A stretch of 64,000 nt of DNA. Source: Cheilinus undulatus (lineage: Eukaryota; Chordata; Actinopteri; Labriformes; Labridae). Below are positions 20,330 through 60,553 of the stretch, piece after piece (the first letter of the stretch is position 1; each line of letters starts with the position of its first letter). The DNA lies in contig NW_024571693.1 in assembly GCF_018320785.1 (NCBI RefSeq), positions 1 through 64,000 of the forward strand. Direction: 5' to 3'. Under the pieces are notes generated by a model that saw only the letters and a program-made list of their open reading frames with translations, was not told the origin of the DNA and did not search any database. A program made the translations under genes and the position numbers.

Positions 20330-23300
20330 TCACACTGATTAAAGTTCCAAGATAAAAAAAAAAGAAGAATTACAAAACAATAAAAATCCAGTTTATAACT
20401 ATTGTAGTCAAACACCATCACCAAAAACACAAACTTGAAAAGCGTACAGATGTTCATTAAACCCATGTATTTTTTTTCTATATACAGTGCTTAACAAATT
20501 TATTAGACCACCTGTCATATTTGTCTCAGAGACCATCCAGCATCATGAAGTGCTTTAATGCGGACTCTTTCATTTTCAGTGAGCTCACGTTTTACCATTT
20601 TGAACAGGAATGAGGAATTTCAAACTGAATTCACCTTTTTATATCCAAATTTGAGCCGGCTCACTGGGCTTCTCTGAGAAGTCAGAAATGAATCAAGCAT
20701 AACATTCAACCACTAAAACTCATTTTTCTGTTCAGGAATGCAAGTAAATAACTATATTTTGACATATTAATCAAGAAATATTAATGTGCTTTACTATTTT
20801 TTCAGTTTTTTTGTAAATCAGTAAATTTGAAAATTTATGGATAACAATAATAATTACATTTTAGCATTAAAAATATCATTTGGGTTAAAGAGCTTCTACA
20901 TATTGGTGTATTAACCATTGCAGAAACAAAAAATGATTTTGGTATTTACCAATGCTGTTAATATAGGGCAGCTGTGGCATAAAGCTTACTTTGGTTAGGG
21001 TGGTCTAATAAATTTGTTAAGCACTGTGTTCATTTTTTTTATTAGTCTTATCAAACATTTAAGAGAACGTTCAGTTTCTTACCCTTTTCGTTTTCTTTCT
21101 CCCATTCTGTATCTAAGACAGAGAACAGCATGTTGTAAATCAGTCATTTATAATGTGATCATCATTAAACATTAATCATGCTTAAGCAGAGTGTCACCAA
21201 AGATGGATCCTGACAGCAGAACAAACTCAAACATCTTCATATAACTTCTATAAAATCACTGATTGTATTTAATTAAGATTTTTTTCTGTTTAATATTAAT
21301 TATCTTATTTTATTATTATTATTGTTCCACTAGTAAATCTGGTAGAGAAAAACTATTAAAAACAACAAATCAGCTCTATAATTTCTGCTGAAATAAAAAA
21401 GAAATCAACTGATCAAACTAAAGTACTGTCTGTTTATAGATACTATATTGGTTGTGTAAATACATGTTAAAAAATAACAAATATCCAAATTCTGAAATTT
21501 TATGAAAAGTTTTATTTCTCAATATGTTGTCTTTTCACATCCTTAAGATCACATTTAGTTTCTTACCCTTTTCCAGTGTACCTGTGTATTGGACAGAGAA
21601 AAGCAACTTATAAATCAGTCATTCATAATGTGATCATCATTAAACATTAATCATGCTTAAGCAGAGTGTCACCTCCATAAATGTGACAGTGGAGCAAACT
21701 CAAACATCTTCATAAGACTCATATTACATTACTGATTCTATTTAATTAAGGATATTTTTGTGTAAAATTAAATATTTGGATTCATAAATCTGGTAGAGCA
21801 AAACTATTGAAAAACAACAAAGTGACGCTACAATTTCTGCTGAAATTAAAAAAAATGATTTAATGCATGTTAAAAAAGTGAATAATCTTTATATTGAACT
21901 ATGTTTCAATATACTTTTTTTTATCAAACATTTAAGAGAACATTTTGTATCTTACTGTATTGTGGTCTTTGCTTTTTTCCTGTATATAAGAGAAAGAAAA
22001 GAATGTAGTGAATCCATCATTAATGATGTGATCATTATCAGTCACTGACCATGCTTTAGCATTGTTTTATATTTGATAGTGACAGTGGAAAGAACATAAG
22101 GTACTCCTTCATCAGACTTAAACCTCAGAACTGATCTGTAGGTTATTTTGACTTTTTGTTTCAAATCAAATATTATCACTAATAAATTTTTTAGAGCAAA
22201 ACTACTGAAAGAACCCATTATTACTAAATTATTTTCATCAACACAATGACTTCTGGCTTCTTACCCCTGATGTGTTTGTTGATGAAAAATGCAGCAACCA
22301 CGATGACTACTACCAAAACAATTCCTACTGGTACAAGGATGGGTATCAGCCAGTCCCGTCCTCCTATAAAACAAAAAGTCAAATGTATTTGAATGATGTT
22401 GGTTAATGCTTTTGTTTGATATTGTAGTATCATACATATGAAATGTTGTTTTTAAAAGGTATTAAGATATCTAATCTGTGTTAACAGCGAGGATGTTGCT
22501 CAGTGGAACTACTCACGCTCAATGAAGGGGAACTTGCATATAATGAGGACGGGGTTTGTGACGCTTTCACTGGTTTCATTGCTGACTGGGTTCATCATCA
22601 AACATCTATAACTGTGCTCTGTAAAAAACTAAACATTCAGAGAAAGAAAATCACGAAAACAAATTAAGAAAAAAAAGCTCACAACACTGAGGATGACACA
22701 GTATGGTGAAGAAAGATCATTAATCATAAACTGAAGTGTTCAAACTCATCAGCTCAGGCTGACAGTGACGTCTTGGGTTTTTCTTACCTCTGTTAGAAGG
22801 AACTTCTGGCCTGAAGGTCCCTCCACATCATCTACTAACCACGTATAAGTGACTGGTTCAGCATCTGCAGTGTTGCCTTCACAGGTCAGGTTACAGTAGG
22901 TCATCTCAGGGCTGCAGGATTTGATGACAGAGGGTTTAGCTACACGAGCTGATAGAAGAAAGAGCAAAACATAAGTAGAGAGTGGACTTGAAGTAAAAAG
23001 AAATAAAGAAGTAGTGAACTTTTTTCACCTGAACACGGAGGTATCTGACTGAACTATTATAAAATGTCAATGTTGGTGTTATTTCTGACATTTACGCCAA
23101 ACTAATAAAAATCTGCGTTTGACGTCTTTTAATTAGCTCAAACGGACTGCCTTGAAAAACCAGTTCTGAAAAGGTGAGGCTTATGTACGTCACAAACTCT
23201 AGATAAAAGGTAGAAGGTTACCGCCTCTAACTGACTTTCTTATTCAGAGACCACTCCCATCCTCTCCTGTACCTGCCCTGCTTCGGCTCTGAGAGCTCCG

Positions 23301-40051: not shown

Positions 40052-43000
40052 TCAGTCTCTATTAAATACAACAACACAATAACAAGTAAGAATTTTAATA
40101 CACCTTTAACACCTGAAGCCACGATGTCTGTCCCACCCCAGCCTGGATGACAAAAGCTAAATGTCTTTACTGGATGTTAGAACTAGCTTCAAGCTTAAAA
40201 AGCTTGAAATGTCAGTTAGGCCGGCCACACACTACAGGATTTTAAGCCCGATTTGGGGCAAGATTTGCCTCCCGCGACAATCGTGGGGGCATATACCGAC
40301 TGGAGCCTCGTCGCAAACGATTATTTGTCTGAGTAGTCTGCATGTGTGTGGTGTCAATGCAATTAATTTACTGCTCCAAATCGCGTTGTAGCCTCCCAGA
40401 CCCTGAATCATAAATATCAGACATGTCTGATATTTAAGGTTCTAGGTCGTAGTGCCACTGACGGAGTACCCACAACAACCAACGAGAGTGAGCACACTGG
40501 GTATTGTCACCAGACGAATCATATGTACTTTCACCACTCACAACCATAAACACAACGGTAGCTTAATTTCAGCCAGGATTTCGCCCTGAGTCTTTCCCTT
40601 GTTTTATGATTGTTGCTGCACCTGTAACATGCCAGGACAGCCTGTTGTAGAGAGACAGCAAGACGGCATCGACAGACAATCATTTTTTGTTTTTGTTTTT
40701 TTTTTTTTTTTAACATCACGTGATCACGCGAGGTCATAGGCAGGTCGGCAGGTGTGTGGTCTCCAGTGATCTGACAGTCTGGCCGAGTCGTCTAGTGTGT
40801 GTGTTCAGGGGATTAAAGATGAAAAATCTTTGGAAATTGTCCTGAAGTCTGTCTGTCTCCCACGGTTTTAAAATCGTTTCATATTAAAAAATCGTCTAGT
40901 GTGTGGCCAGCCTTACCTGATAATCATTTTAATCAAGTGTAAAACAGTATTTTTCATAGCAGCGTCTTATGTGCAACAGAGTCAATGAATGTGCAAACAA
41001 TACCACTAGTAAACTGAGGTGTTATGGTTTAAAATGTGACCATGTTTACTGATGACTCTCAACTGAATGTGATGTTTAAAACAGAAAGAGTTCTCTTGAA
41101 TGCATCTTTGGGTTGATTTCCATTAGATTCATGTCTGATGAGCATATTTTGACCTGATATAAATAAATAAACAAAGATTCTTTATAAGGATAGCTACACA
41201 GACACCAAGGCTTTTGTTTGCTCTCAGATCAATGCTTATGTACAGTCAAAGGCCTCTTTCTGTCCAGCAGTCTTCACGTTTCTCTCTGTGAGCACCTTGA
41301 GATGACTCAGGTGTTACTTTATGTTACCTTTAGGCCTCTGAGATACACCTCCAATGTAAGTATCAATAAATAGCAGAGTGCTCAAACTTAAAGTAGTAAA
41401 TAACTTTAAAAATAATGCAGAGAAGGGCATTTCCTTCTTAGATTAAGAGGAGCTGACACATTTGAGTAAAAGTGCCTTAAATGACGTACTAAACTTGGGT
41501 AAACATTAAGACGTTTTCCAGAAAAGGAAACTCAGGAAACGTGCTTAGGATTTTACTTACGAGCTCCACCGTGGCCATTTTGTATTACTAGGGGGGTCTG
41601 AGACCAGGCTGGTTCTCTGGGCTCCTGAAGCAACTGAGGAAAATGATTAAAATAAATAAATAAATAGTAATGATAACAGAAAATAGAACAGTAACTAAAA
41701 CACACTTGGTTGATTTTCTACTATCAGTCAGTCTTCTGTAACTATTTTGAACATGTTTTTATGTTTGGTTTAATAACATTTTACTCACCAGCTCCATTGC
41801 TGAGATGTTGGTTGTCTTTGGGATGTCCTGAAACAAATGGTAGAAAAAAATCCATTGTAAGATAACTGGTGAATGATTTTGTTTAAAGTCAAACAAGTTT
41901 TATCATAGTTTAAACATGTTTCAGAATAGGTCTAATAGCATTTTATTACCTTCAGCAGCTAAATCATCTGGAGTTTGATTTAGTGGGTCCATCTCATGCT
42001 CATGTCCTAACAAAACAAAAAATAAATATATATGTATATATAGGTCAGACTGAATCATTGTATCAGTATAAGGGGTGCGTGATAAGATGATCTCAGATCA
42101 TGAAGAAATAGATGAGCTGCTAAAGTTGTTTTATTGTAGAATCTGTTTTTTTATTCTTCTAGCTCTTCGTTCCTTCTTCCCTTCTGCTTCCCAACACAGC
42201 GGTGATGCACGGCTGCAGATGAAACTGAAACTTAAGATTTAGTCCTTAAGAAGATTTCTATCTGACCTATACGAAACTGTATTGGGGCTTCCTAAACCAT
42301 GAATGTGCAAAAGAAATGTATTTAAATTAAAATAAGACAGGGACATTATTTACTGCATAACCATGTGTCTCAGACATCAAACATCTTCTGGTTTATGTTT
42401 ATTTGCTTATTTAGCCAGTCTGTAAACAAGGCTGTCATATAAAAATGTGTATGCTCAGGCTACTTGTGCAAAGCTGCACTACAGAATTCTGTTTACAGTC
42501 CACATGCTTTCAGCTTAAAGTCATTGTGTTAAAATTTGCTACATAAACACTTGAACAGATCTAAAAACACAAAGGAGGACACATAAATCATATTTCCTAA
42601 GTTGTGCAGAAAATGCAGAAATTGATGATGATGGTGATAGTGGCAACAATGAAATGGCAAATTCTAATCTCGTCATACATTGGCCAACAGGTTTTTGCAG
42701 AAGAGAATGAAGACTTAAAATGCTTGACTTGTAAAAATAACATTTATGCATGTTAAAATTACATGGGGTATAAATTGTTTTTTCTGGTCATTATGTTAAG
42801 ACTTTGTCATAAAATTGAAAGAAAAATTGTGATAAATGAAGATTGTTATCTGGCCTTAAAAAAATCATGATATGTTTTGCTCCATATCGCCCTTCTCTAT
42901 GTATACTATATTGCATGTGGTGAAAACTTAAAGTGGGCTACAGATTTGGAATTTTATACTTAAAAATAGTGAATACAGACATGTTTGCATGTTAAATATA

Positions 43001-46000
43001 TACATATATTTTAATGTTGATATTATTCAACTGTAGTTCATTTAAACAAGTTCAACTTTTCACATGTTAAAAAGGAGATTTAGTTTCTTACCCTCTTCTC
43101 TTTCTACATCTCTTCCTGTGTAGACAAAGAAAAGCATGTTGTAAATCAGTCATTCATAATGTGATCATCTTTAAACATTAATCATGCTTAAGCAGAGTGT
43201 CACCAAAGATGGATCCTGACAGCAGAAGAAACTCAAACATCTTAATAAACTTTCATCTCATTACTGACTGTATTCAAATAAGGATTTTCTCTGTGTAAAA
43301 TTAAATACTTGGACTAAAAATCTGGTTGAGCAAAACTATTAAAGAAACAACAAAACAACTCTAAAATTCCTGCTTAATTAGAAAAAAATCATTCGGTACA
43401 ACTGAGTTATTGTCTGTTTATGGATGCTCTATTGGTTTTGCAGGATACTTTAAGCAGCCTACAGATTTGGCTTGAAAATGTTTTGTTTTGCATTTTACGA
43501 AAATGAAAACAAATTTATTAATTTAAATAGACTTCAGTTGAGAATTATGTGAAACTTTCACATGTTTAAGACAGCATTTAGTGACTTACGGTTATTTGGT
43601 CCTTGCCTTCTTCCTGTATATAAGAAAGAAAAGCATGTAGTAAATCCGCCATTAATGATGTGATCATTATCAGTCACTGACCATGCTTTAGCATTGTTTT
43701 ATATTTGATAGTGACAGTGGAAAGAACATAAGGTACTCCTTCATCAGACTCAAACCACAGAACTGATCTGTAGGTAATTTTGACTTTTTGTTGAAAATCA
43801 AATATTATCACTTATAAATTTGTTAGAGCAAAACTACTGAAAGAATTCATTATTACTGAATATTTTATCAACACAATGAATTCTGGCTTCTTACCCCTGA
43901 TGTGATTGTAGATGAAAACAGCAGCAACCACAATGACTACCAAAACAACCACTACTATTACTGGCACAAGGATGGATATCAGTCGGTCCTGTTCTTCTAT
44001 AAAACAAAAAGATAAAACAAAAAGTCAAATGTATTTGGATGATGTTGGTTAATGCTTTTGTTTGATATTGTAGTATTGTTAATATGCAATGTTTGTCTAA
44101 AGATAAAAAATCTGTGCTTATAATGAGGATGTTTGTCAGTAGAACTACTCACCTTTAGTGATGATGGGGTTTTTGATGCTTTCACTGGTTTCATTGCTGA
44201 CTGGGTTCATCATCAAACATCTGAAACTGTACTCCTTTGAATCCTAAACATTCATGGAAAGAAAATCATGAAAACAAATTAGGAAAAAAGCTCAGTAGCA
44301 CTGAGGATGATACAATATGATAAAGAAAGATTAATGTTGTTAGTTTTTCATACCTTTGTTATAATCAACACAACATTTGAAGGTCCATCCCTGCCATCTA
44401 TAAACCACGTATAAGTGACTGGTTCAGCCTCTGCAGTGTTGCCTTCACAGGTCAGGTTACAGCTGGTCATGTCAGGGTTGCAGGATTTGACGACAGAGGG
44501 TTTAGCTACACGAGCTGACAGAAGAAACAGCAAAAAATATGTAGGAAGTGGACTTGAGGTGATAAGAAATTAAAGAAAATAATAATCTGGAGGTTAAACT
44601 TCATTTAAAATTCTCCACTCACAGATAACAGAGAGTTCAGTCTTGTTGGTGACTTTGCCGCTAATCTTTAGTGTGTAGATGCCGTTGTCTGTTTGTTTCA
44701 GTCCTTTGATGGTCAGTGCTCCAGTTTTAGTGTTCACCTCACAGCGACCTGATATAGCGGTAAAACAGGACACCAGTCAGGAGGGAATATTAATACAGGA
44801 AAAATATACTGTGGTGAATCCCTTTTTTTGATTTTATGTTTAATATTTGATATTTCATCGTCAATGTTTTTTTGTAACTCTAAAGATTTCTACTCCTCAA
44901 ACACTTAAATAACTCAGAATACACAATTTAAAACCTTTTTTTTTTTAACATTTTGTGAGCTGTTTAAGATTTGTAAGTATCAACACTGATCAAAAATACA
45001 ATCATGCCTTTCCTTCAGTTAAAATATTTCATAAAGGATGTAAATAATTAAAATACCATGGATATAAAGTGACTTATGAACAAACACAAAGTCAGCGTAT
45101 TATAACCTCAAGAATATTTCTAGGATTTAAGGACTAATGTCACAGCAGGACCTTGAAAAACTGGTCCATGCATTTATCTTTAGTCGAGTTGACTACCGTA
45201 ACAGTGTCTTTACTGGTCTGCCTAAAAGTCTATCAGACTGATCAGCAGCTGATCCAGAACGCTGCTGCTTGAGTCCTCACTAAGACCAAGAGTGGGCCAT
45301 ATCAGTCCTGTTCTGAGGTCTCTACACTGGCTCCCTGTCTCTCAGAGAACAGACTTTAAGATCCTCCTGTTAGCTTTGAATGGTTTAGGCCCAGAATAAA
45401 TCAGAGACCTTCTAGTCCAGTATGAACCATCCAGACCACTCACGTCATCTGGTGCAGGTCTGCTCTGTGTCCCTAAAGTCAGAACTTAACACGGAGAATC
45501 AGCGTTCAGTTTCTATGCTCCTTATATCTAGAACAAACTCCCAGAAAACATCCGGTATGCTGAGAATTTGAGTTCTTTTAAATCAAGGTTGAAGACTCAC
45601 CTGTTCACTGCTGCCTTTGACTTTGAACTCTGCACTGTAGCTTTTACTTTAATATCTGTTTTTATCTTTATTGTTTTTTTTTGCTGTTTTAAAAAAACTT
45701 ATGTGTTTTTATCTTTTTGGATTTTATCTGTTGTTTTACATATAAAGTTCAGACAAATGGCACTAGGGATGTGTCTATCTTCTGTGGGTCTTATTTGCTG
45801 TTTGTTTTGTAATAAAATGTTTTCATTGTGTTTCTTTTTCCCTTTGTCAATGTATTTTAATGACCTGTGTGAAGCACTTTGAATTGCCTTGTTGCTGAAA
45901 TGTGCTATGCAAATAAACTTGCCTAGCCTTGCCTTACTGAAAACAGGTGAAAGGAGCACCCAAATGTACATCCTAAAATGAAATAAAATCAAAATGTTTA

Positions 46001-49000
46001 ACTCTCTTTCTTACCCACAAATACACTCAGATTGATGCTAAAAGCAAATTAAAGGTCATGATAAAGTCACTGGTCGCGTTTCCTTCAGCACAAATCAATG
46101 GCTGAGTTATTCTAATACCGTGAAGTTTGTTTCTCTGTTAACATATCAAAAGCTATGATTTTGATCAAGGTTCTGCTTGTGTTTTCAAGCTGAATAAATA
46201 TGTTTAAGTACATCAGTGAGTGAATTTACCTTCAAACTGGTTAAGGCACTCAAACTCATCTCCATACCACCCTGCTGCAATACTTTCATTGTGTTTCCAC
46301 TCGATTCTTTGGATAGTATCATTCATGGGGGGTGGTCTGATGATCACATCTTCACCTTTAGCTCCGTAAACTAGGACAGCTGTTAAAAAAAAAGTGCATC
46401 AAATGTCATTATTAAACTACTAAATACACTGTTAAGTTGAATAAATATACAGTGCTTTACAAATTTATTAGACCAGTTGTCATATTTGTCTCAGAGACCA
46501 TCCAGCATCATGAAGTGCTTTAATGCGGACTCTCATTTTCAGTGCGCTCTCAACGTTTTACCGTTTTGAACAGGAATGAGGAGTTTCAAACTGAATTCAC
46601 CTTCTTATATCCAAATTTGAGCCGGCTCACTGGGCTTCTCTGAGAAGTCAGAAATGAATCAAGCATTTCAACCACTAAAACAAAGCTTTCTGTTCAGGAA
46701 TGCAAGTAAATAACTATAATTTGACATATTAATCAAGAAAAAATAATGTGCTTTACTATTTTTTCAGTTTTTTTGTAAATCGGTAAATTTGAAAATTCAT
46801 GGATAACAATAATAATTACATTTTAGCATTAAAAATATCATTTGGGTTAAAGAGCTTCTACATATTGGTGTATTAACCATTGCAGAAACATAAAAAATGA
46901 TTTTGGTAATTACCAATGCTGTTAATATAGGGCAGCTGTGGCATCAACCTTACTTTGGTTAGGGTTAGGGTGGTCTAATAAATTTGTTAAGCACTGTAAA
47001 CAAACAGCATATATGAAGACTGTGAGAGATCTTGAAACAAGGCAAAGGTTTATAAACAAGGTCAAAGACAAGGGCAGAACTGGTATCAAGTTATGTTCTA
47101 GTATGTCTCTATAGACCTGCATTTGTCATGAATGATCTTCCTTTTACAAAAATGGATAATTTATCATAAAAAAAAATGATCTACTCAAAAGATGTTAGCT
47201 AACATTCTTTATCTGATAAGCGTAGCCTTGCATATGTGAAATGATTATTTAAGTATTAAATTATACAAACTTTGTTTATTATTGGGATCTTTGATGAAGG
47301 GGTTTGTGACGCTTTCACTGGTGTCATTGCTGACTGGGTTCATCATCAAACATCTAAAACTCTCCTCCTTTGTATCCTAAACATTCAGAGAAAGAAAATC
47401 ATGAAAACAGATTAAGAAAAAGCTCAGTAGCACTGAGAATGCCACAATATGGTAAAGACAGATTAATGTTGTTAGTTTTTCATACCTTTGCTATAATCAA
47501 CACAACATTTGAAGGTCCATCCCTGCCATCTATAAACCACCTATAAGTGATTGGTTCAGCCTCTGTAGTGTTGCCTTCACAGGTCAGGTCACAGCTGGTC
47601 ATCTCAGTGTTGCAGGATGTTTTTACAGAGGGTTTAGCTACACGAGCTGACAGAAGAAAGAGCAAAGATACGGGGTACTCTAGGGGACTTGAGATCAAAA
47701 AAATTTCCAAAATAATCTGGAGGTAAAACTTTATCTAAAAAAAATCACCGCTCACAGATAACAGAGAGATGAGTCTTGCTGGAGTCTCTGAAGTTAATCT
47801 CTGGTGTGTAGATGCCGCTGTCGTTCAGGTTTAGTTCTTTGATGGTCAGTGCTCCAGTATCAGTGTTCACCTCACAACGACCTAAAATCATCAGCAGACA
47901 TGGTGACATGTGACAGCAGGTAGCAGGAAAAATGTAAAACAGAGAGAAATGGAAAAAAGACAAAACAAAAATCACAAACAACGGTGGTAAATATCTGGGT
48001 TTTTAAGGTTCAAATGCATTACTCATCCATCCCTCAACCTTAAACCACTCAAAAAAACACAATAAAATAACTCAGAATAGAACAAGCATGGGATTTATCC
48101 ATTGTTTCAGTAAGTGACAGAAAGAAAAGCCAAAACACGATTAGTCCTGTCTTGACTTTTGCTGACACAGAAGTATTATACCTGATATAACATCTTACAC
48201 TGAAAACATGTGAAAGGAGCACCCACATTTACATCCTAAAATGAACTGAAATCAACACCTTTAACTCTCTTTCTTACCCATTTAAACACTCAGATCAACG
48301 CTAAAAGCAAATTAAAGGATAAAGTCACTGGTCGTTCACATTAGCAAAAATCAGTGGCTGATTTATTCTAATAACTGGAAGATTGTTTCTCTGTTAACAT
48401 ATCAAAAACTATAATTTAATCAAGGTACTTCTTGTGTTTTCAAGCTGAATAAATATGTTTAAGTACATCAGTGAGTGAATTTACCTTCAAACTGGCCAAG
48501 GCACTCAGACTTGTTTCCATACCACCCTGCTGCAATATTTTCATTGTGTTTCCACTCGATTCTTTGGATAGTATCATTCATGGGGGGTGGTCTGATGATC
48601 ACATCTTCACCTTTAGCTCCGTAAACTGGGACAGCCAGAAAAAAAGGCACCAAATGTCATTAAACTCCTAAATGCACTGTTAAGTTGACTAAATATAAAC
48701 AAACAGCATATATGAACATGGTGACAGATCTGGAAATGATGACAAAGGTCTATATACTAGGTCAAAGACGAGGGCAGAACTGGTATCAAGTTATGTTCAA
48801 GGATGTCTCTATAGACCTACATTTGTCACAATCTACCTTTTACAAAAATGGATAAATTATCATACAAAACAGATAATCTACCCAGAAGATGTTAGCTAAT
48901 GTTTTTTATCTGATAAGCGTAGCCTTGCATAAGCACAATATTTATAAAGGTATTAAAATATACAAACGTTGTTTAATGAAGGGGTTTGTGACGCTTTCAC

Positions 49001-52000
49001 TGGTTTCATTGCTGACTTGGTTAGTCATTAAACAGCTGAATCTGTCCCCCTTTGTATCCTAAACATTCAGAGAAAGAAAATCATGACAACAGATTAAGAA
49101 AAAGCTCACTAGCACTGAGAATGCCACAATATGGTAAAGACAGATTAATGTTGTTAGTTTTTCATACCTTTGCTATAATCAACACAACATTTGAAGGTCC
49201 ATCCCTGCCATCTATAAACCACCTATAAGTGATTGGTTCAGCCTCTGCAGTGTTGCCTTCACAGGTCAGGTTACAGCTGGTCATCTCAGTGTTGCAGGAT
49301 GTTTTTACAGAGGGTTTAGCTACACGAGCTGACAGAAGAAAGAGCAAAGATACGGGGTACTCTAGGGGACTTGAGATCAAAAAAATTTCCAAAATAATCT
49401 GGAGGTAAAACTTTATCTAAAAAAAATCACCGCTCACAGATAACAGAGAGATGAGTCTTGCTGGAGTCTCTGCCGTTAATCTCTGGTGTGTAGATGCCGC
49501 TGTTGTTCAGGTTAAGTTCTTTGATGGTCAGTGCTCCAGTATCAGTGTTCACCTCACAACGACCTAAAATCATCAACAGACATGGTGACATGTGACAGCA
49601 GGTAGCAGGAAAAATGTAAAACAGAGAGAAATGGAAAAAAGACAAAACAAAAATCACAAACAACGGTGGTAAATATCTGGGTTTTTAAGGTTCAAATGCA
49701 TTACTCAACCATCCCTCAACCTTAAACCACTCAAAAAAACACAATAAAACAACTCAGAATAGAACAAGCATGGGATTTATCCATTTATTCAGTCAGTGAC
49801 AGAAAGAAAACCCAAAACATGATTAGTCCTGTCTTGACTTTTGCTGACACAGAAGTATTATACCTGATATAACATCTTACACTGAAAACATGTGAAAGGA
49901 ACACCCACATTTACATCCTAAAATGAACTGAAATCAACACCTTTAACTCTCTTTCTTACCCATTTAAACACTCAGATCAACGCTAAAAGCAAATTAAAGG
50001 ATAAAGTCACTGGTCGTTCACATTAGCAAAAATCAGTGGCTGATTTATTCTAATAACTGGAAGATTGTTTCTCTGTTAATATATCAAAACTATGATTTAA
50101 TCAAGGTACTTCTTGTGTTTTCAAGCTGAATAAATATGTTTAAGTACATCAGTGAGTGAATTTACCTTCAAACTGGCCAAGGCACTCAGACTTGTTTCCA
50201 TACCACCCTGCTGCAATATTTTCATTGTGTTTCCACTCGATTCTTTGGATAGTATCATTCATGGGGGGTGGTCTGAGGATCACATCTTCACCTTTAGCTC
50301 CGTAAACTAGGACAGCCAGAAAAAAAGGCACCAAATGTCATTAAACTCCTAAATGCACTGTTAAGTTGACTTGAACAATGGCAAAGGTCTATATACTAGG
50401 TCAAAGACGAGGGCAGAACTGGTATCAAGTTATGTTCTAGGATGTCTCTATAGACCTGCATTTGTCATGAATGATCTTCCTTTTACAAAGATGGATAAAT
50501 TATCATACAAAACAGATAATCTACCCAGAAGATGTTAGCTAATGTTTTTTATCTGATAAGCGTAGCCTTGCATATGCACAATATTTATAAAGGTATTAAA
50601 ATATACAAACGTTGTTTAATGAAGGGGTTTATGATGCTTTCACTGGTTTCATTGCTGACTGGGTTCATCATTAAACAGCTGAATCTGTCCCCCTTTGTAT
50701 CCTAAACATTGAGGGAAAGATAAAGAATACAGACTATGAAAACAAAGGATGACACGATATGGTTCAGAATGATCATTAATGATGAATTTAAAGTGTTCAA
50801 ACTCATCAGCTCAGGCTGAAGGAAACGTTTCTGCTTTTTCATACCTTTGTTATATTCCACTCCTTATATGAAGATCCATGCTTGCCATCTAAAAACCACT
50901 TATAGACAACTGGGTCGGCGTTTGTAGTGTTGCCTTCACAGGTCAGGAGACAGCTGGTCATCTCAGTGTTGCAGGATGTTTTTACAGAGGATTTAGCTAC
51001 ACGAGCTGACAGAAGAAAGAGCAAAGATGCGGGGTACTTTAGGGGACTTGAGGTAAAAAAGCAAAACAACCTGGATGTTAAATTTCATTTTAAATTCTCC
51101 ACCTACAGATTACAGAGAGTTCAATCTTAAAGGGGACTTTGTAGTTAATCTCTGGTGTGTAGATGCCGCTGTCGTTCAGTTTCAGTCCTTTGATGGTCAG
51201 TGCTCCAGTGTCAGTATCCACCTCACAACGACCTAAAATCATAAACAGACATGGTGACATGTGACACCAGGCAGGAGAGAAAATTCAAATCAGGGAGAAA
51301 TCAGAAAAAACACTGTGGTGGACAACTACTGTAACCACAGACTTTGCACAAGCAGACATCTTTAAAGATGGATTACATTAATGGTCTTTGGTGAATTAAA
51401 ACATTTCTATACCTCGCAAAAAAATGTAAATGTAATGCCTCATAATCCTCGGGTTTATCTGTAAACTCAGTCCAGATCAGGGTTGAAATGCATTAATGTA
51501 TTGTTATAAATGTATTGTTAAAATGTATTGTTATATTAATTATTTGATATTTGAGAGCTTTGAAAGAATTTAAGGTCCAAAAAGTCATTAAAATACACTT
51601 CAAGTAATCCTTTTACTTCAAGTTTCCATAAAATGTCTGTAATAACTGAACTGAAGTGGATATTAATGGATTCCAGTCATGGTTACCTTGTATTCTGTTT
51701 CCGTGGTGTAGCGGTGAGCTAAGAAGAAAAGCTGGGTGGTTTCTGTGGTAATGTGATGTAGACATTTTTAAAACAGAGACTTCAGTGTCCATATGTGTGA
51801 TTAAGCCTTTGTACAATCTGTGTTTTCTTTTAAAGACATAATAGTGTAATAATCCTCCAACACATTTGAAACTTGCAGACTCACACTGTCTCACCAGAAG
51901 TAAAAAGTCGATTTTAAGGGACCAGTCTTGTCAGCATTATTTTATATTTTGATAACTGCTCAAAAACACAAATATGCATTTTGACTTCTGCCTGTAAAAA

Positions 52001-52816
52001 GGCTATTACTAGATGGTAGTTGCTTCCTGAACCCCCCACACTACAGGAGTGGATTAATATTGTAAATGATATTTATGCTATGGAAAGAATTACTTTTTGT
52101 TTACGTCTACAAAAAGATATTTTTGTTAAACTATGGACCAACTGGGTCAAATATGTCAAACCCATTCAGAGAGACTTTGTGGAGGTGATGATTTAAGGTA
52201 TCTGTGGCACTATGCAACCTTGACAAACTACAACTTTGTTTTTCTTTCACTTCCCACCTCTTGAGACTATTTATGGTGTATTTTTGGTTGATCTTATGTA
52301 CACACTTTACCTCTCCCAAGTTGCACTTAGTTCCTTATACTTAAACAAGAAAAAGAAAAGACTGAATAGCAGAGGAAACTCAGTTACTCCAGCATGGATC
52401 TGTTGAGCTCTGATGTCTGCCTTTCAGAAGTGAAAAATAAAGAATTAAAAAAAAAAAAAAACACAAACATGCTAATTATATTTTGTGTTTTGTGCTCTAC
52501 TCTCATGAAAAGTATTAATGTGGCACTGTGTGTGTATGTGTGCGTGTGTGCACACATGCTTGTAGATGACTGATTTGATCTGTTTTATTGTTACTATTTA
52601 TCTGCCCAGGGATGACTGATGAAATAGCTAGTGTTTATGATACAAAGCATCTCTGTCTAGAGACTAATGTTATTTCAAACATTGTCCCAGAGACATATAA
52701 ACTTGATTAAAATAAACTAAACAAAGCTAGGGATGACCATAAGGCCCAATGACCTTCACCCTCAAAATTTAACCAGCTCATCCATGAGTTACAGTGTTTT
52801 TTTTTATGTAATGTCT

Positions 52817-52855
<39 letters not shown>

Positions 52856-55800
52856 AAAAGTATTCTAGAGGTATTACATTCACAAGAAGGTCCAGGAAGG
52901 ACTGACAACCCAAAAATATAACGGCTGGCATGGAAAAACGACCCCTGATAAAACATCTTATTTACACTGAAAACCTCTGAAAGCCCCACATCAATCTATA
53001 TCTTAAAATAAAGTTAAACTACAATCTTTAACTCTCTCACTTTAAAAGTTTTCTCCCCTAGAAAAAACACTTAAACCAATGCAAAAAGCATACAGAAGGA
53101 TAAAAGATCACAGATATCATAACTGTTCCTCTGGGAAATCAAATTGCCTTTTCTACACAAAAAACATTTATAAAAAGTTGGAATACAAGGAAAAAACATA
53201 CACCAGAAAAAAATCCATAATAAATATCACAAATAAATATCACATTAAGCTGTTCAAGAGGCTGATGGCAGTCAGAACAATTCTTTTATTTTTTGGAGGT
53301 GTTACAGTCCTTCTTGTAAGAGGGACATATCTGGGGTCAGACAGGGGCAGCAAGACCTCCTTCAAAAAGGTCTGGTTCATCCAGGATCAACTGGGCCCTT
53401 GAAAGAGTTCTAGCTTTGAATAATTTAAACAGCTCATTCAGAGTAGTGCTGGCAATTTGGCAACACATTTTGAGCCCAGCCATAATAACCATAATAAAGT
53501 CACTATAAAATACCTTCAAATGCCTTTTATTTGACAAACCAAATAGTCAAATTTGGATTAAGGTGCTTATGTTTTTAAGTGTAAATAAACAAGTATATTT
53601 GTAAGAAAATTTACCTTTAAACTGGCCAAAACACTTAGACTTGTTTCCATGCCAATCTGCTGCAATATCCTCATTGTGTTTCCACTCTATGCTTTTGATA
53701 GGAAGATCCATGGGGGATGGTCTGAGGACAGCATCTCCACCTATAGCCTTGTAAATTGGGTCAGCTGTAAAAAAATGGACATCAAAGGTCATTATTGAAT
53801 ATTTGTAGTCTTTTCTAAGTTATCTAAATCACATTCTGAACCATTTCTTAATTCATGAGAGAAAAAGCTCCTAAAGCAGAAGTTGTCTGAAGTTATGCTA
53901 CAAACTTTTTCACAACACAAGTAAGATGGAATCTACAGCAACATAAATTAATCTATTTAGTTATTCATTCGAATTTATTTAACCAGGAAAACCTCACTGA
54001 GATTAAAATCTCAGCAGCACAATGAACAGAGCTGCAAACATGAAACATAAGAAACACTACAAACACAGATCAACCAACGACTGGTTCACAGAGCAGAAAG
54101 TCATCAGTCAAAACATCTACGACCTGATCAATCTTCCTCCAATGCCTTCAATCTTAAAAATTTTAAAACAACTTTAAGAGACCAGCTCCCCCAGACATTC
54201 ATGCTCCTGCAGAATATTCCAGGCTGTTAACTGAAACTCCTTTTACCATCCTATGACTGACTTTGGGCACAGAAAGCAAAAGCAAATAAAGACTGTAGCT
54301 TTCAGAACTTTTCACATGAATAAAATCACACAAGTATGATGGAAGTAAAGCTGAAGGTTAAATAAAGCTTTATAAATGATGACATGCCAATAATTTAGCT
54401 TAAGAGCTGCCAAAGAAGGCCAACCAACTCGCTCATACAGAATGCAATAATAAGTCATGGACTTATGGTTCGAAAGAAAAACAAGACGTTTTCTGGATAA
54501 TAATAAGATAAGTGCTTTGAAATGATGGCATATCTCCATACTATGCATATTATTCAGTTCTGTTGTGCCTCCAATGTGGTAGACCTGACCTAACGTGAAA
54601 ACACTCGGCTTATTTTATGCTTAAAGTCAGAGAGAAAAAGCCTGAAATACCCATAACTTAACCTGACACGCCAGATGGATTTGTAAAACAAAAGCTTCAA
54701 TAGGAAAGGTTTGAGAAAAGGCAGAGGATTTGAAAAAAACTCGGAGTGTGATTGAATTACCGCAAAACATGGCGACTACATGTCAGTACTCAACTTTTGT
54801 CGTTTTTGAAAAGAAAACAACTCACTGCTGATCTTTGATCTTTTCATGAAGACATGTAATGAAGTTCTGATAAAACTAGTGCTTTAGCAGCATCCACGGT
54901 AACCTCTTCCTCCATAACTGCACCAGCTCTTGCTGCTGCTTGTTTGCGTAACGACACTGCCGAAAGTGCTGCCCCTCGTCACTGATTGGTCCTGCCGCTG
55001 GCTAACCGGGCCCAAACGGTTCAGATGGGTGCTTAACAAGATGGATTCGCCAGTGAAAAACAAGGAAACGGGTGTATTCATCTGCTTTGCAAGGTTAACA
55101 AAAATCGCATCTTGATAGTAAATTAGCTGAATTGCATTACATGATTTATATTTTGGTTATTTTTAATCGACAAAGAAATAACAAGAACAGTCACCCCTTA
55201 GTTAAATCCACATGGATCAAATGTCCCACTGTCACTTTCATTAACAACAAGCTGATCAGTATGAATATGGACATGAAAAATTACATAAAGATAAACTATA
55301 TGTTTGGGGGGGAAGACACACTATTAAACAATAACGCTCCTTAAATGAAATAAGACAAATAAAATGCTGTTTCTCCACTAGACCTAGCATTTAAAATACA
55401 TTATCTTATGGTCAGTAAGCCTGTTACTGTTAGTGATTCATAAAGCATTGTTTTAAGATCATGTTGTTGTTTAGACAGGCAACATGTATAAACTCTGGAG
55501 CAGCTGAGGTGACGTCATTTTCTCTGGCCATCAAATCCCTGTCCCTGATTTGTGCACACCCTGATCTCTTTCTGGAGCTGCACGGAGCAACTTTTCTGCA
55601 GTGAGTGTTTCAAACTGAACTAGTTTGTCTTTCATCTCTTTTTTGACTGAGTTTCTCATGTTTGTATTTTTCTTGTTGGCAGACTCTACGCTTTATCGGA
55701 AGAAGGTGTGGAGCCTGTTGGGATCTTTAGAACTCGGCTGTATGTGACCATAGGGTTTTCGTCTTTGCTGGCATGTCCCCATCCATTGTGTGGAGCGCTG

Positions 55801-57921
55801 GAAACAAGAGGAGGACAACCTCATTGAGTGTGTTGACATGGACTTGACTATCCCAGTTTGATGGTATTTTTAAGTATCCTGTTTATGTGTTAGTACGTAT
55901 ATAATCATATTGTGATGGAGATATACACTGAATGCTTTGTTTTAAATCCTGCTCAGCGCTTCATTGTCAGGGGAATACACAATGACTGAGTGAGGTGTGT
56001 AATGATGGCTGTGCTTCTCATCTCAGCAGTGGTAACCAACTAGATGGACACAGGCATCTCTTCAGTAACACAGTAGCCTTACCTTAAACCTGATCAAACA
56101 TATGCCTGATGAAAGCTGCTGTTTGATTTACTGCTCTGAAAAACTCTGATGTGTCTTCTGCTAACGCCATGTTGATTCTGTGCTGTTTAATATCATTTTT
56201 GTAACTGCTGTATCCTGCCAAGGTACTTTAAATTTTGGTTGTTAACTCTTTTCCAGTGCATCATATGGAGCATTTAAACTTGATTGTATGTAGTCCTTTT
56301 AAAAATACACGAGTGGGGTAAAGTGATGTGATTTATTATTGGATCATAATCATCTTGTTGCTAAAAACTGCAGTTTCAGTTGAGATATCTAAGTTGTGTT
56401 TATCTGAGAACTGAATAGAAAGTGTGTGCTTCAACATCAAAATTAAAATAAAAAGGTAGTCTAATATATTTCCCTTTGGTTTGCACCTTATTTCCGTCAC
56501 TTGTCTTCTTCAGATCAAAAGTTCCAAGTCTCAACTTGAATCAAAGATTGAATTAAAGATCTATGAATCACTTCCTTGAATGTTTGACACTAACCTTGTT
56601 TGACAGTCTCTCTCTGAATAAAGACTTCCCTTTATTATCTCTTCTGGGTTCATTTTATCTTGGTAATGTTTGTGAAATAGCTGTAGTGATAACCATTGTT
56701 AGCTCGTACAGCTGCAGGGGTCTGCATATCCCTAAGCAGATCCCCATACTACTTGAAATGTACTACTGCCTCTTCCCTGATGCCAAGCCATTTAAAGAAA
56801 AACAGAATTAATACAATTTTCCCAGCCTGTGTCTGTGAACGGGGTGATGGGCCCATTGGTCTCCACTGTGTGCATACAACACTCCAGAAAGAGTAGTACA
56901 TAGGTCATTTTTCACTTCATTTCATAACATTAAAGTGTATAGATAATTAATACACAAAATCTTCCCAGAAAGTGCTTCACAGGAATTTTAATTTTATCGT
57001 TATTGTTTGATGTAGATGCAGTTTAAAATCTTACGGATGGTAATTTGACACACACATATACGTATATATTGAAAATCAGAATATAAAATGATTTCTGTAA
57101 TCGCGGTATGTAATTTGCAGTGTGTTTTCCGTGTTTTTTTCAGTTACTGTAACCTCCTGTGTAGTTAAATGTAGTCAAATGAATGGATTCACACATCTAT
57201 CTACATCAAATTGATCGATAATTAGTCCATTCATTCGTCTGACAGCTCTGAGCTCCAGACAGTTTTCCAAGCGCGCCATTGGATGAGAAGCCCTATTACG
57301 TCATGCATAGCGGACCCCCAAACGTAGCTGTCCGCGCTATTTGCCGGTTGAAATAACTTTTAAAACTGATCGATTACAAAAATACGTGCAAGAAGTGAGA
57401 GTGACAACAATTTTATTCTTACTTGTAATGGAATGACGATTCAGCAGTCAAAAGATTAGGTACTCCCTCACCAGGGATCGTTTAAATACACAATATCTCC
57501 CGTTGGCCCACCGCCTACAGAGGAGAACGTGCTCCATGAGAAAGGAGGGGTACTCTAACAAGGAAGAACTAAAAATACGGACTCTGGATTACCCTTATTC
57601 ATAACGTTTCCAGTTATAACCACTGTTAGGTACACTAAGATGGCGCAGATAAAGCGTTTTACGTTGATTTAGTAAATGTGATCCATAACACACTGACAAT
57701 GGCACATTTCCTGCGTGACACAGCAGTAATTACTTCTCGATATACATTGTATTTATCTGTGTAACACGTATCAAATTTAAAAAATACACACCTCATATGA
57801 ATTACACAACTTCTTTAAAATCACCACAAAACACATTTAAGTGATTTCTGTACTTACCAAGGCTGGAAGAAAAAAACAGGACCAGGAAAAACAATCCCAA
57901 CTTTCGATGCGCGCCCAGCAT
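40052..57921 (-). CDS. gene 3: eight-Ig-domain CD48/SLAM-like receptor, ~829 aa model
   Basis: One signal exon (57921-57858, MLGAHRKLGLFFLVLFF) and one TM exon (43996-43895, ISILVPVIVVVVLVVIVV) enclose four V-C2 pairs with no other signal or TM exon between them. Pair a: 53764-53615, 51232-51107, 51005-50845, 50701-50611. Pair b: 50306-50166, 49563-49438, 49328-49168, 49058-48968. Pair c: 48625-48485, 47881-47756, 47646-47486, 47376-47271. Pair d: 46379-46230, 44748-44623, 44514-44354, 44243-44153. Tail: 43613-43590, 43115-43092, 42006-41950, 41827-41789, 41624-41561, then stop at 40052. Phases agree across all junctions and the total is divisible by three. Each V has IEWKHNE, C(L/F)xQF(E/K)G|RCEV and YTPEIN (YTLKIS in d); each C2 has CNxxMTSC and LTCEGNT. 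Mammalian Ly9 has four Ig domains; eight is unusual. The weakest joints are the GTTTGT donors ending pairs a, b and c. The alternative is several shorter transcripts. Confidence 0.65.
40219..40912. mobile_element. PIF/Harbinger-like non-autonomous element
   Basis: 694 bp between TTA trinucleotides (40216-40218 and 40913-40915). Ends GGCCGGCCACACACTACAGG and, inward from the right, GGCTGGCCACACACTAGACG. A 3-bp TTA duplication and these ends fit PIF/Harbinger. No transposase. The corresponding intron of gene 4 (near 61470) lacks it. Confidence 0.75.
45121..45937 (+). mobile_element. L2/CR1-type LINE 3' fragment
   Basis: Encodes, with breaks, the C-terminal end typical of fish L2-like reverse-transcriptase proteins: QLIQNAAA-like, HISPVLRSLHWLPV-like, FKILLLALNGL-like, then SFKSRLKTHLFTAAFD (45568 on). 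It ends with AAATAAACTTGCCTAGCC, the simple tail expected of L2-like elements. Lies in the V-d intron of gene 3, antisense to the gene. Confidence 0.8.
46450..46996. mobile_element. Tc1/mariner-like non-autonomous element, copy 2
   Basis: 547 bp flanked by TA (46448-46449 and 46997-46998), ends CAGTGCTTTACAAATTTATT / CAGTGCTTAACAAATTTATT inward. Same family as 20485-21026. The sister block keeps the empty site (aaatataaacaaacagc at 48691-48707), proving insertion after that block duplicated. Confidence 0.9.
47271..50640 (-). repeat. tandem duplication of a V-C2 exon block, unit 1,682 bp
   Basis: Matching exon boundaries differ by a constant 1,681-1,682 bp (48625/50306, 47881/49563, 47646/49328, 47376/49058), with introns almost identical by eye. 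Gives pairs b and c of gene 3; intron identity marks it as the youngest step of the expansion. Confidence 0.9.
51960..52462 (+). mobile_element. second L1-type LINE 3' fragment
   Basis: Encodes KKAITRW, a stop, then LLPEPPTLQEWINIVNDIYA and ERITFCLRLQKD, ending with a TAA near 52196. This is the extreme C-terminus typical of fish L1-type ORF2. About 250 bp of 3' UTR and an A-rich tail (52447-52462) follow. It lies in the V-a intron of gene 3 and is inactive. Confidence 0.75.
52529..52558. repeat. TG/CA microsatellite
   Basis: Short (TG)n run with TATG and GCGTG interruptions. Confidence 0.7.
52815..52850. repeat. poly(A) run
   Basis: About 30 consecutive A residues starting near 52821, probably the tail of a retroelement or simple slippage. 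Confidence 0.8.
53940..54350 (-). repeat. dispersed fish repeat (TTTATTTAACCAGGAAAACC type)
   Basis: Words TTTATTTAACCAGGAAAACC, CACTGAGATTAAAATCTC and AGACCAGCTCCCCCAGACA belong to a very common teleost interspersed repeat. Class not assigned. In intron 1 of gene 3. Confidence 0.55.
55115..57850. other. intron 1 of gene 3; no second gene established
   Basis: Contains a stretch at 55560-55870 with a donor-like (CTGCA|GTGAGT near 55601) and an acceptor-like (TTGTTGGCAG near 55682) signal and a short frame reading VERWKQEEDNLIEC. I could not assign it. A GC-richer patch at 57265-57360 has an inverted CCAAT word (ATTGG) and a CRE-like TTACGTCA. Confidence 0.4.
57265..57300. promoter_or_regulatory. 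candidate CCAAT plus CRE-like cluster
   Basis: CGCGCCATTGGATG followed within 20 bp by TTACGTCATGC, in a CpG-bearing patch. Could be an internal promoter of gene 3 or of an unrecognised transcript. Motif evidence only. Confidence 0.25.
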
Positions 57922-58083
57922 ATTCCTTGAAAGTGGACCAGGCGTTATCGCCCATAGATATAGAAGAGTAGATACGACACGCCCCTTTAGAGCTGCGTGC
58001 CTACGGCGAGGCTAAGCTAGTGGGGGCAAAAGTGTCGGGTCATGCCGTGGTTGTAGACGGCACGAAAACTCAAAACAACAAGG
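57922..58083. promoter_or_regulatory. candidate promoter upstream of the gene 3 signal exon
   Basis: CpG-bearing stretch (GATACGACACGCCCC, GCCTACGGCGAGG) between the minus-strand signal exon of gene 3 and a plus-strand THAP-like ATG 162 bp away. Possibly bidirectional. Confidence 0.35.
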
Positions 58084-58149
58084 ATGCCTGCACATTGTGC
58101 TGCATACGGTTGCACACTACACTGTACGGTTGAAACAAGGAAACTGTAA
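58084..58149 (+). pseudogene. THAP zinc-finger start fragment
   Basis: ATG at 58084 opens MPAHCAAYGCTLHCTVETRK and then TAA. This is the beginning of a THAP domain: M-P-x-H-C then A-Y-G-C (first two zinc-binding Cys) and a VETR segment. The remainder (the GITFH...P region, later Cys and His) was not found downstream. A real first exon would need a donor inside AAACTGTAAATAACC (possible CT|GTAAAT). More likely a broken copy of a THAP-bearing transposon or gene. Confidence 0.5.
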
Positions 58150-59250
58150 ATAACCTTTCATAGGTAAAAATAGTTTTTCGGCTCTTTTTTTCATTGTTAA
58201 ATCTTGTGGAGAGCTTCACTAACTACCTGACTAGCAAAACACTAACGCGAGCTAGCAGCTTGACAGCCAAATACCAGACTATTAATAGTAGCTGTAGTAT
58301 AGTTGTACATCAGCAGTAGTAGTATAAATAGCCTTTAGAGTCATAGAAGTAGTATCAGCATTAGTATTACTGGTTGTAGAAGCAGTGCCAGTATCAGCAG
58401 TAGTAGTTGGTGTACCACCGCTACTACTAGTAGTAGTTATATAAGTTATATACGTTATAGTTATATGTATAGTTATATACGTTAGGTCCAAGGTGAAGTG
58501 AAGTGTTACTATATACTCAGTGACACGTACAACAATTTCAATGTACATTTCTCTAACTTGTACAAATGGCAATAAACTCTATTCTGTCTCCACAGTGTGT
58601 TTGTTTCTATAAACATACAGAGTGAGAGAGAGATAAGGAGGGGGAGAGAGATAAATAAGTTAATATAAACGATTATTTTTGATTACCTTTACAATTAAAT
58701 CTTTCAATCTAGAAACATATTTTCTATAGGGTGACATCAGGTAAATTGGGCCACTTTTTGGTTAATTGCTTGGGTAACTAAGAAAAAGTAATGTGACACT
58801 AGATTGTGTTTTTATAGTTAATAAGGACTGTTTTTAATATTTTTGGGTTGAATTGATGTGATAAAATCATTTAGGTCTTACAGCATTTGAAACATCAGCC
58901 CTCCTACATTTTTGAGATGATCAGTGTTCAGGTAAAATGGGCCACTGAATTTCAGAGCAAAACAGAGTCATTTCTGATAAAACAATTTAACCTCAATTTT
59001 AACACACATGTAACACAATATAACCTTACATTTAAAGAACTTTAAAATAATACATGAATAATGACATTGAAATGTTAAGAATCATTAATGAGAACTAGCA
59101 ATTTAGGAACTGTAATGTTAATGTGTGTGTGTGCCTCTGTCTGTGTGTTTCTATGTGTGTCTCTCTGTCTGTCTTTCTCTCCGTCCATCTGTCTGTGTGT
59201 GTCTCTGTCTTTCTGCCTGTTTGTTTGTCAGTCAGTTTTTCAGTTTGTTT
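58150..59250. repeat. simple-repeat-rich spacer between gene 3 and unit 4
   Basis: AGT trinucleotide runs (58309-58440), TATAGTTATA runs (58437-58485) and a TGTC/TCTG-rich stretch (59120-59240). The frame 58282-58572 (T/I/Y-rich) is translated repeat. No gene. Confidence 0.65.
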
Positions 59251-59254
59251 TCCT

Positions 59255-60553
59255 CAAACTATAAGTTTTAACATTTTAGGAATAAAACAGCAATAAAATA
59301 ATTGCAAAAATAAGACACATTTCCTCTTTTGATGTCTTTGTTTATTATGTTTTCTCCATAAACATCCACGCACAGTTTTCACACATGTATGGGTCCCTTT
59401 TAGTCAACAGAGTCACATCTTAAATTGCACATTAAAAAACATCCAGCTGATTAGGATTTCATGCTCCACAATAAAATTCGGTAAGACATAATGACTGGAC
59501 TCAGTTATTTCCAACATTGACTAGAGTGAACATACTGTATGGCAGAGGATTCACAGCACATCAGTGTCACTTCTGTGCTGTTATAATCTCAGTGACTACC
59601 TGAACCTACACACTCACTCTCTGTGCTTCTGGATTCAGTCTTCTGTCCATGTTTGGAAATGATTCATAGATTTACATGAACTAATGAGATGTTTCATACA
59701 TTTAGGTCACAACTCTCATGAGTCCCAAATCCATGGCAGACTATTTTGGAGTCACAAGATTTCAGAGTTCTTTTGCACCATTCAAAAGTTGGACCAGTCA
59801 CTTTAACCTGTATAAAATAAAGAGATAGTTCATATGTCATGATTAAAAAAAAAAAAAAAAAGCCCAAAAAATGTTTGTGCTTGGTCACGACTGGAAGAAT
59901 GTAAGGAAATATAAACATACAAAAATAATCTCTATACTTTGGTTTGGCTCAGATTTCAGGATTTATGGCGCTGCAAAGGCTAATCACTATTATTAGGAAT
60001 TTCATGAAAATTCTCCCAGAACTTTGTTTTGGCATCAAAACTGGCAGCACAGATTTGATTCTATAAAAAATATAATCTAAATCTTAAAAAAAATTGTTTG
60101 TCTATGTAAAAAACATAAAAAGTTTGATGTTCTTGCCTAATACAAATGTCACAAAATGTTAACTGTGTAAAAATAAAGACTAAAAATCCTCTAAAATTCC
60201 TTGACATCCATCTCTTTTGTTTCCTCATATTTTCCTCCAACATACAGCAATTATGATGCTTCACTGGTCTGAAGCTGCTGTAAATAGAAATGTTAACTAC
60301 TATCACTCAGTGGTCCTGAACCATGCAGTGATTTTAAAATGCATGATCTGCAGAGAGCAGCTATTTGTATTCATTCTTACATCACAGGCTGACGTGGCAG
60401 TAGGTAGTTAATGTCAGAAATAAATAGTGCATTTCTTCAAGTTTCTCACTACCTTCATGTAACACTTCGTCCCATAGTGAGTTTAACATCTTCAAATGGA
60501 GAAGATTCTGCAACAAAAGTCTCTATCAACATGTTTTGAGGTTTACGCCTTGT
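59255..60553 (-). other. 3' untranslated/flanking part of duplication unit 4
   Basis: Matches the 3' blocks of genes 1-3; for example 'ccacgcacagttttcacaca' at 59367 recurs at 36757. No independent gene seen. Confidence 0.55.

Follow-up and report, generated by a model that had tools for sequence, protein, structure and literature searches.

Contacts of CD2-family receptors are thought to be set by a fixed height of two domains. The C2 domain of CD2/SLAM receptors carries a second disulfide, the tail of Ly9 carries an ITSM, and carcinoembryonic antigen (CEA) is built from one V and repeated C2-type domains, not from repeated V-C2 pairs. Gene A of Cheilinus undulatus, which is described here, resembles CD48, CD58, CD2 and 2B4 in that a V domain without the canonical disulfide is followed by a C2 domain; in contrast to the single pair of these proteins, it has four pairs, and its V and C2 domains are each divided between two exons. 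It shares a multi-Ig ectodomain with the CEACAM proteins, and CEA, an adhesion protein, is its best PDB match. A review of the family, in the part on which we draw, describes CD2/SLAM members with two Ig domains and Ly9 (SLAMF3, CD229) with a duplicated pair (PMC4718992), which agrees with what an earlier sequence-only reading of this DNA had stated about the known members. Like gene A, Ly9 has an ectodomain lengthened by V-C2 duplication (PMC4718992), and its four-Ig layout is that of gene Q, a relative described below. However, Ly9 has two pairs, whereas gene A has four and an all-exon tail without tyrosine. The Xenopus FcR-like (XFL) receptors, as part of their description has it (PMC2413239), are like this cluster in being lineage-expanded immune receptors with many Ig architectures. 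They differ from gene A in that they belong to another Ig family and combine several domain subtypes, with no repetition of a single pair. A search of the titles and abstract openings of the open-access literature returned no CD2/SLAM protein with more than four Ig domains, and gene A would have, to our knowledge, the longest ectodomain of the CD2 family.

The window, which is the whole stretch of DNA analysed, comprises the initial 64 kb of contig C42, which has 145,255 bp and belongs to a genome of 1.17 Gb in 46 contigs. Its minus strand contains a cluster of CD2-type receptor genes (A, B, C and the 3′ end of U). Gene B (signal exon at 35451, TM exon at 32427; window 35451–32300) and gene C (signal exon at 27571, TM exon at 22358; window 27571–22250) each have two Ig domains and are one-pair (V-C2) TM receptors of the gene A family. 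The remainder of C42, in which positions 110001–115000 are a run of N, holds the further family genes U, W, X and Y. When single exons were used as tblastn queries, at least six matches to each of V1, V2, C2a and C2b were found in the window with E values of about 1e-8 to 1e-36, far above chance. A genome search with one C2 exon returned at least 34 places, 19 of which lie on contig C24 (17.74–17.98 Mb), 13 on C42 and 2, both weak, elsewhere; a stop is present in two of the 34 matches, gene U and its counterpart on C24.

Gene A is formed by one signal exon, 16 Ig exons that make up four V-C2 pairs (a to d) and one TM exon, which extend over 57921–43895 of the minus strand (Table 1). The chain of 18 exons with AG/GT borders is in phase and without a stop through the TM exon, a total of 758 aa, and the 16 Ig exons of the window copy are free of stops and frameshifts. 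The sequence-only reading had proposed four V-C2 pairs between one signal and one TM exon on one strand with unbroken phases, and all 18 exons were indeed found and are open. Its estimate of about 829 residues is right as to the open chain with a tail, but the model with all five short tail exons, which stops at 40052, gives 832 aa. The V domain is split over two exons and so is the C2 domain, with border phases 1,1,1,0,1 in each pair, which makes each pair a phase 1-1 module. The best explanation as a whole, to which we give a probability of about one half, is that gene A is one gene whose four V-C2 pairs, set between one signal and one TM exon, would encode a type I membrane protein with as many as eight Ig domains of CD2/CD58/CD48 type in a row. 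If this is true, its ectodomain would reach unusually far from the membrane.

Table 1. Exons and inter-pair introns of gene A in window coordinates (a slash marks the exon border at a donor).
Feature	Position	Strand	Basis
Signal-peptide exon (phase 0 to 1), MLGAHRKLGLFFLVLFFSSSL	57858..57921	-	phase join + signal-exon scan
Pair a V exon 1	53615..53764	-	exon matches + phase join
Pair a V exon 2	51107..51232	-	exon matches + phase join
Pair a C2 exon 1	50845..51005	-	exon matches + phase join
Pair a C2 exon 2, weak donor AAC/gtttgt	50611..50701	-	phase join, donor score, alignment
Junction intron a/b, 304 nt; query that found C24 copy + other multi-pair genes	50307..50610	-	
Pair b V exon 1	50166..50306	-	phase join
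Pair b V exon 2; C24 copy 2 nt shorter	49438..49563	-	phase join, C24 comparison
Pair b C2 exon 1	49168..49328	-	phase join
Pair b C2 exon 2, weak donor AAC/gtttgt	48968..49058	-	phase join, donor score
Junction intron b/c, 342 nt	48626..48967	-	
Pair c V exon 1	48485..48625	-	phase join
Pair c V exon 2	47756..47881	-	phase join
Pair c C2 exon 1	47486..47646	-	phase join
Pair c C2 exon 2, 15 nt longer in frame, weak donor AAA/gtttgt	47271..47376	-	phase join, donor score
Junction intron c/d, 891 nt, with transposon-like insert	46380..47270	-	
Pair d V exon 1	46230..46379	-	phase join
Pair d V exon 2	44623..44748	-	phase join
Pair d C2 exon 1	44354..44514	-	phase join
Pair d C2 exon 2, strong donor AAG/gtgagt	44153..44243	-	phase join, donor score
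Transmembrane exon	43895..43996	-	exon search + phase join
Cytoplasmic exon CYa	43590..43613	-	
Cytoplasmic exon CYb	43092..43115	-	
Cytoplasmic exon CYc	41950..42006	-	
Cytoplasmic exon CYd	41789..41827	-	
Cytoplasmic exon CYe, 73 nt, leaves phase 2 instead of 1	41561..41633	-	
Last codons + stop, given use of all five tail exons	40052..40058	-	

The four pairs might instead belong to separate tandem genes, or the assembly might falsely repeat one block, and pairs b and c are indeed nearly identical from V1 to the third intron (97–100% over most of the length). This alternative is already largely refuted and is very improbable. The introns between the pairs are short (304, 342 and 891 nt), and a scan for signal-like exons, which as a control recovered those already known in A, B and C, gave no candidate in the three intervals whose donor scores above 1; the best one, at 0.9, lies inside the transposon-like insert of the c/d intron. 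A search with the family TM exon (E up to 10) placed none between the pairs of gene A among the matches listed. Scan and search together disfavour separate genes with signal exons of their own. A false duplication of b and c is opposed by their C2b exons, which are only 86% identical, and by a second copy of gene A on C24. The latter was located with the a/b junction intron, which has 15 matches in the genome, on C42 and C24 (17.74–17.96 Mb). Over window 54570–39300 the C24 sequence is 99.3% identical (61 substitutions and 21 gaps in 15,290 columns) and contains all four pairs, the TM exon and the tail exons in order, with no difference between the copies in pair d and the TM exon. The presence of four pairs in this copy as well argues against a simple assembly duplication.

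We read C42 and C24 as two haplotypes, although they may represent two loci. Upstream of 54570 the C24 copy diverges and uses a different signal exon, which likewise ends in phase 1; the promoter/signal segments of the two copies thus differ (window 54570–59400 versus C24:17943883–17946346). On C24 this segment shares 98.5% identity with its counterpart in gene U of C42, which suggests that 5′ ends have been exchanged between genes. Within the coding exons, V2b of the C24 copy has 124 nt instead of 126 owing to the loss of CT in CTCTCT, so that the all-exon reading stops after 292 aa and the eight-domain frame is intact in one of the two copies. The two missing bases may reflect a true difference between the copies or a fault of the assembly; as it stands, the C24 sequence does not allow an eight-domain protein when all exons are used. 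The length of CYe is unchanged in this copy.

The donors that follow the C2b exons differ sharply in strength. With an approximate scoring matrix, they score -2.9 in pairs a and b, -1.9 in c and +8.3 in d, and among 3732 minus-strand GTs 73% score no better than -2.9 and 81% no better than -1.9. As a control, the V2 donors, which are used throughout the family, are also low (a -1.3, b -0.1, c -0.1), while the C2b donors of genes B and C score 1.7 and the signal-exon donor of gene B 6.3. Pairs a to c, when aligned with pair d and with the B, C, U, W and Y genes, lack the ancestral gtgagt donor and adjacent bases. As judged from this alignment, the ancestral donor is deleted in the three pairs and the C2b exon now ends in former intron. 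Read-through of C2b in these pairs meets the first in-frame stop 114–129 nt from the exon start; GPI anchoring by this route was rejected, as the added tail was judged too short.

Weak donors could also lead to the skipping of pairs, such that gene A, still as one gene, would mainly give shorter products, usually with two, four or six Ig domains, and the extra pairs would be optional cassettes; the signal exon joined to pair d is one example. All gene A pairs are of phase 1-1, the C2b donor is strong in d and weak in a to c, on C24 the frameshift would do no harm if pair b were skipped, and the examined stretches of C42 and C24 contain one-pair and two-pair genes and no other four-pair gene, all of which fits such products. 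However, the acceptors and the other donors of a to c are kept and pair 1 is open in genes A, P, Q, S and X, which suggests inclusion, and a skip of 12 exons would be out of the ordinary. We consider predominantly short products somewhat unlikely. For the four-pair gene that we prefer, we infer that splicing can cross the weak donors, and the combination of phase 1-1 pairs with weak inter-pair donors leads us to expect transcripts with fewer pairs beside the long form. The claim of an eight-Ig receptor in the sequence-only reading therefore holds in part: the open frame makes an eight-Ig product of the window copy plausible, while the three weak donors and the frameshifted C24 copy speak against it.

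The same junction between pairs is found in other genes of the family. Gene Q on C24 is open from the signal exon through two pairs to the TM exon (399 aa), and genes S and X have two pairs that are open over the examined parts (292 and 341 aa). With the borders placed by us at these GTs, Q, S and X cross the inter-pair junction with the donor AAA/gtttgt, and the hexamer gtttgt recurs unchanged in every one of the six junctions aligned from A, X, Q and S. The junction intron of gene X contains an insert of ~5 kb, and its two ends match the intron of gene A at 82–83% and 81–97%. A, Q and S occupy three separate places on C24, and gene X on C42 may be either an additional gene or the equivalent of one on C24. 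The common junction and donor indicate that the V-C2/V-C2 junction predates the divergence of A, X, Q and S, and that gene A extends a two-pair, Ly9-like stock to four pairs. Together with the C24 copy and the short junction introns without detected gene ends, these two-pair relatives bear out the proposed in-frame multiplication of V-C2 within one gene. The anatomy of gene A is real and more widespread than had been seen, and it takes the Ly9 principle to greater length, in a family that lacks ITSMs.

Two other genes depart from this layout. Gene P (C24:17741089–17749792) has two open pairs and a different junction, with atgagt instead of gtgagt at the position of the final C2 donor. Its last C2 exon stops before any TM exon (NPIIIKHE), so that a secreted four-Ig form is conceivable. 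In gene U (C42:74046–68400) the first pair has lost the second half of C2 through a deletion that runs to the next V exon; a V-V-C2 protein would be possible via skipping.

It can also be argued that pairs a to c, or the whole of gene A, are decaying remnants left after the deletion that removed the donors and are drifting to a pseudogene. Besides the deleted donors, this reading is favoured by the 2-nt deletion in V2b on C24, by the shifted frame of CYe and the lost donor of CY3 in the tail, and by dN/dS near 1 (0.91–1.67 in 15 comparisons), which does not point to strong purifying selection at the amino-acid level. However, the ordinary two-domain genes B and C likewise give 0.98, and dN/dS thus does not discriminate. 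The Ig exons of the window copy are all intact and gtttgt is invariant at the aligned junctions, which also oppose decay, and we regard this explanation as improbable.

The intactness of the pairs was compared with a neutral model. Between pair 1 of gene A and pair 1 of gene X there are 82 differences in 528 nt and a single 3-nt gap, and neither has a stop; pair b and X2 show 34 differences in 428 nt and no gap. In 20,000 runs the absence of a stop was reproduced in 7.9% for a/X1 and in 33% for b/X2, and the Poisson probabilities of no frameshift are 0.0015 and 0.068, respectively; with an indel rate taken from only 7 intron gaps and gene conversion ignored, the intactness of a/X1 and b/X2 appears unlikely under neutrality. 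Within gene A, seven segments that we chose and took as diverged within the array carry 43 substitutions and no gap in 912 coding nt, versus 7 gaps in 1502 intron nt (P about 0.007, the 15-nt difference in C2b of pair c being outside the count). This value, which depends on the same 7 intron gaps and again leaves gene conversion out of account, comes mostly from frameshifts, as the no-stop chance alone is 0.22.

Pair b is a mosaic. It is c-like from V1 through the third intron, as described above, and its V1, V2 and C2a exons are 82–85% identical to those of pair a, whereas its last C2 exon and the following intron are 95–96% identical to those of a and the same exon is far less similar to that of c. 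The junction-intron identity of b and c (79%) is disturbed by the insert in the c/d intron and was set aside; a and c are 86% identical there. The mosaic points to unequal exchange or conversion between pairs. We propose that the source was a two-pair (four-Ig, Ly9-like) gene of the same cluster, to which such exchange or conversion would have added the near-identical b and c. Gene A is a clear case of pair multiplication within a gene, with a rebuilt splice donor and with genomic copies that differ.

The ectodomain is assigned to the CD2 family by several profiles. The whole chain matches Pfam Ig_3 (3.5e-25), V-set (8.5e-22) and Receptor_2B4 (9.8e-17). Against a Receptor_2B4 cut-off of 21 bits the chain reaches 61.6, while a and d, the two pairs scanned singly, are barely above it with 22.0 and 21.4. 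A profile of six sequences aligns over nearly the whole V-C2 pair with CD58 (1ccz, 6e-13), CD2 (1hnf, 7e-8) and SLAMF6 (2if7, 1.6e-6), and, across Pfam and PDB profiles, the pairs fall with CD58, CD2, CD48, 2B4 and SLAMF6. The best single PDB match is CEA (1e07; 2.6e-12 for pair d, 4e-17 for the profile), which spans profile positions 58–172 only. CD2 and CEACAM are not fully separable by sequence alone, and the whole-pair coverage favours the CD2 family. Six aligned V domains of the window have no cysteine at the B and F positions that we assigned and share two other, invariant cysteines; as in CD2/SLAM receptors, the distal V domain thus lacks the canonical B-F disulfide. Each of the four gene A pairs has the canonical C2 cysteines, in LTC and F(R/S)C. 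Genes B and C possess a further cysteine close to where C2 ends, which the gene A pairs lack; in the latter, two invariant cysteines precede LTC. Instead of a CD48-type GPI anchor, gene A has a TM exon followed by tail exons. A pattern search of IMG/VR for relatives gave 27 matches, none of which was confirmed.

The tail departs from that of signalling SLAM receptors. In the 832-aa model it contains no tyrosine and hence no ITSM (TxYxxV/I), a motif that is absent from SLAMF8/9 too, according to the part of the family review used here (PMC4718992). Where Ly9 combines one duplication with a signalling tail, gene A has four pairs and no ITSM. A variant of 849 aa that skips CYe ends in SMYFYVSSF... 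and contains tyrosines and an ITIM-like SxYxxV, again without an ITSM. A motif scan of four tail regions left, from 19 raw hits, two ITIM-like candidates in gene A, both outside the modelled exons, and none in those of U, B and C. The label SLAM-like in the sequence-only reading consequently suits the ectodomain, with its V and C2 of CD2/CD58/CD48/2B4 type, and does not extend to SLAM signalling. As counted from the alignment, CYe (41633–41561) is one base longer than its counterpart in gene Y and ten longer than that in U, which shifts the frame relative to the paralogues, and the tail exon CY3 (40058–39976) has lost a donor that is kept in W, X and Y.

The first and the inner pairs of the family differ in variability. 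Among the six genes with at least two pairs (A, X, U, Q, S and P; for gene A only d was counted as inner, leaving b and c uncounted), the proteins of the V1 exon share 59% identity on average at the first position and 85% at the inner position. Of the 15 gene-to-gene comparisons, which are not independent of one another, 14 show the higher identity at the inner position. The V2 exon shows no difference (76% versus 75%, higher in 7 of 15). Gene Y, whose first V lies beyond the contig end, is outside this comparison. A V1+V2 tree of the 12 modules on C42, which does not include Q, S and P, sets a, X1, U1 and the single-pair W apart with a support of 100; the tree of V1 only separates them less well (support 53), and gene C there groups with the first-position domains. 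The contrast suggests, as its simplest reading, a variable, gene-specific V tip on a uniform stalk, and homogenisation of the inner exons by conversion would give a like pattern. Gene A would act in adhesion or recognition, with the gene-variable first V as the putative binding tip and the more uniform inner pairs as a stalk that would lift it off the membrane.

On a wider view, pair number (1, 2 or 4) may be an evolving length setting of this cluster, in which copies differ in usable length, a gene-specific V tip that changes fast sits on a recombining, nearly uniform stalk and a donor was born from intron after a deletion; we put this forward tentatively, as a possibility with less than even odds. 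A four-pair receptor beside one- and two-pair genes would offer natural variants for the study of ectodomain height and of repeated binding faces.

Several minor features were noted in the window. In the intron between the signal exon and V1a, the plus strand has open stretches with exon-like borders, as judged by eye (55437–55827), and two peptides from them had no match in Pfam. Two inserts that are 93.6% identical to each other lie at 46445–46997, inside the c/d junction intron, and at 20480–21027, and their inverted ends look, by eye, of Tc1/mariner type. Arrays of tandem repeats are found at 700–1335 (unit of 125 nt), 13482–14207 (233 nt) and 16813–17163 (167 nt).
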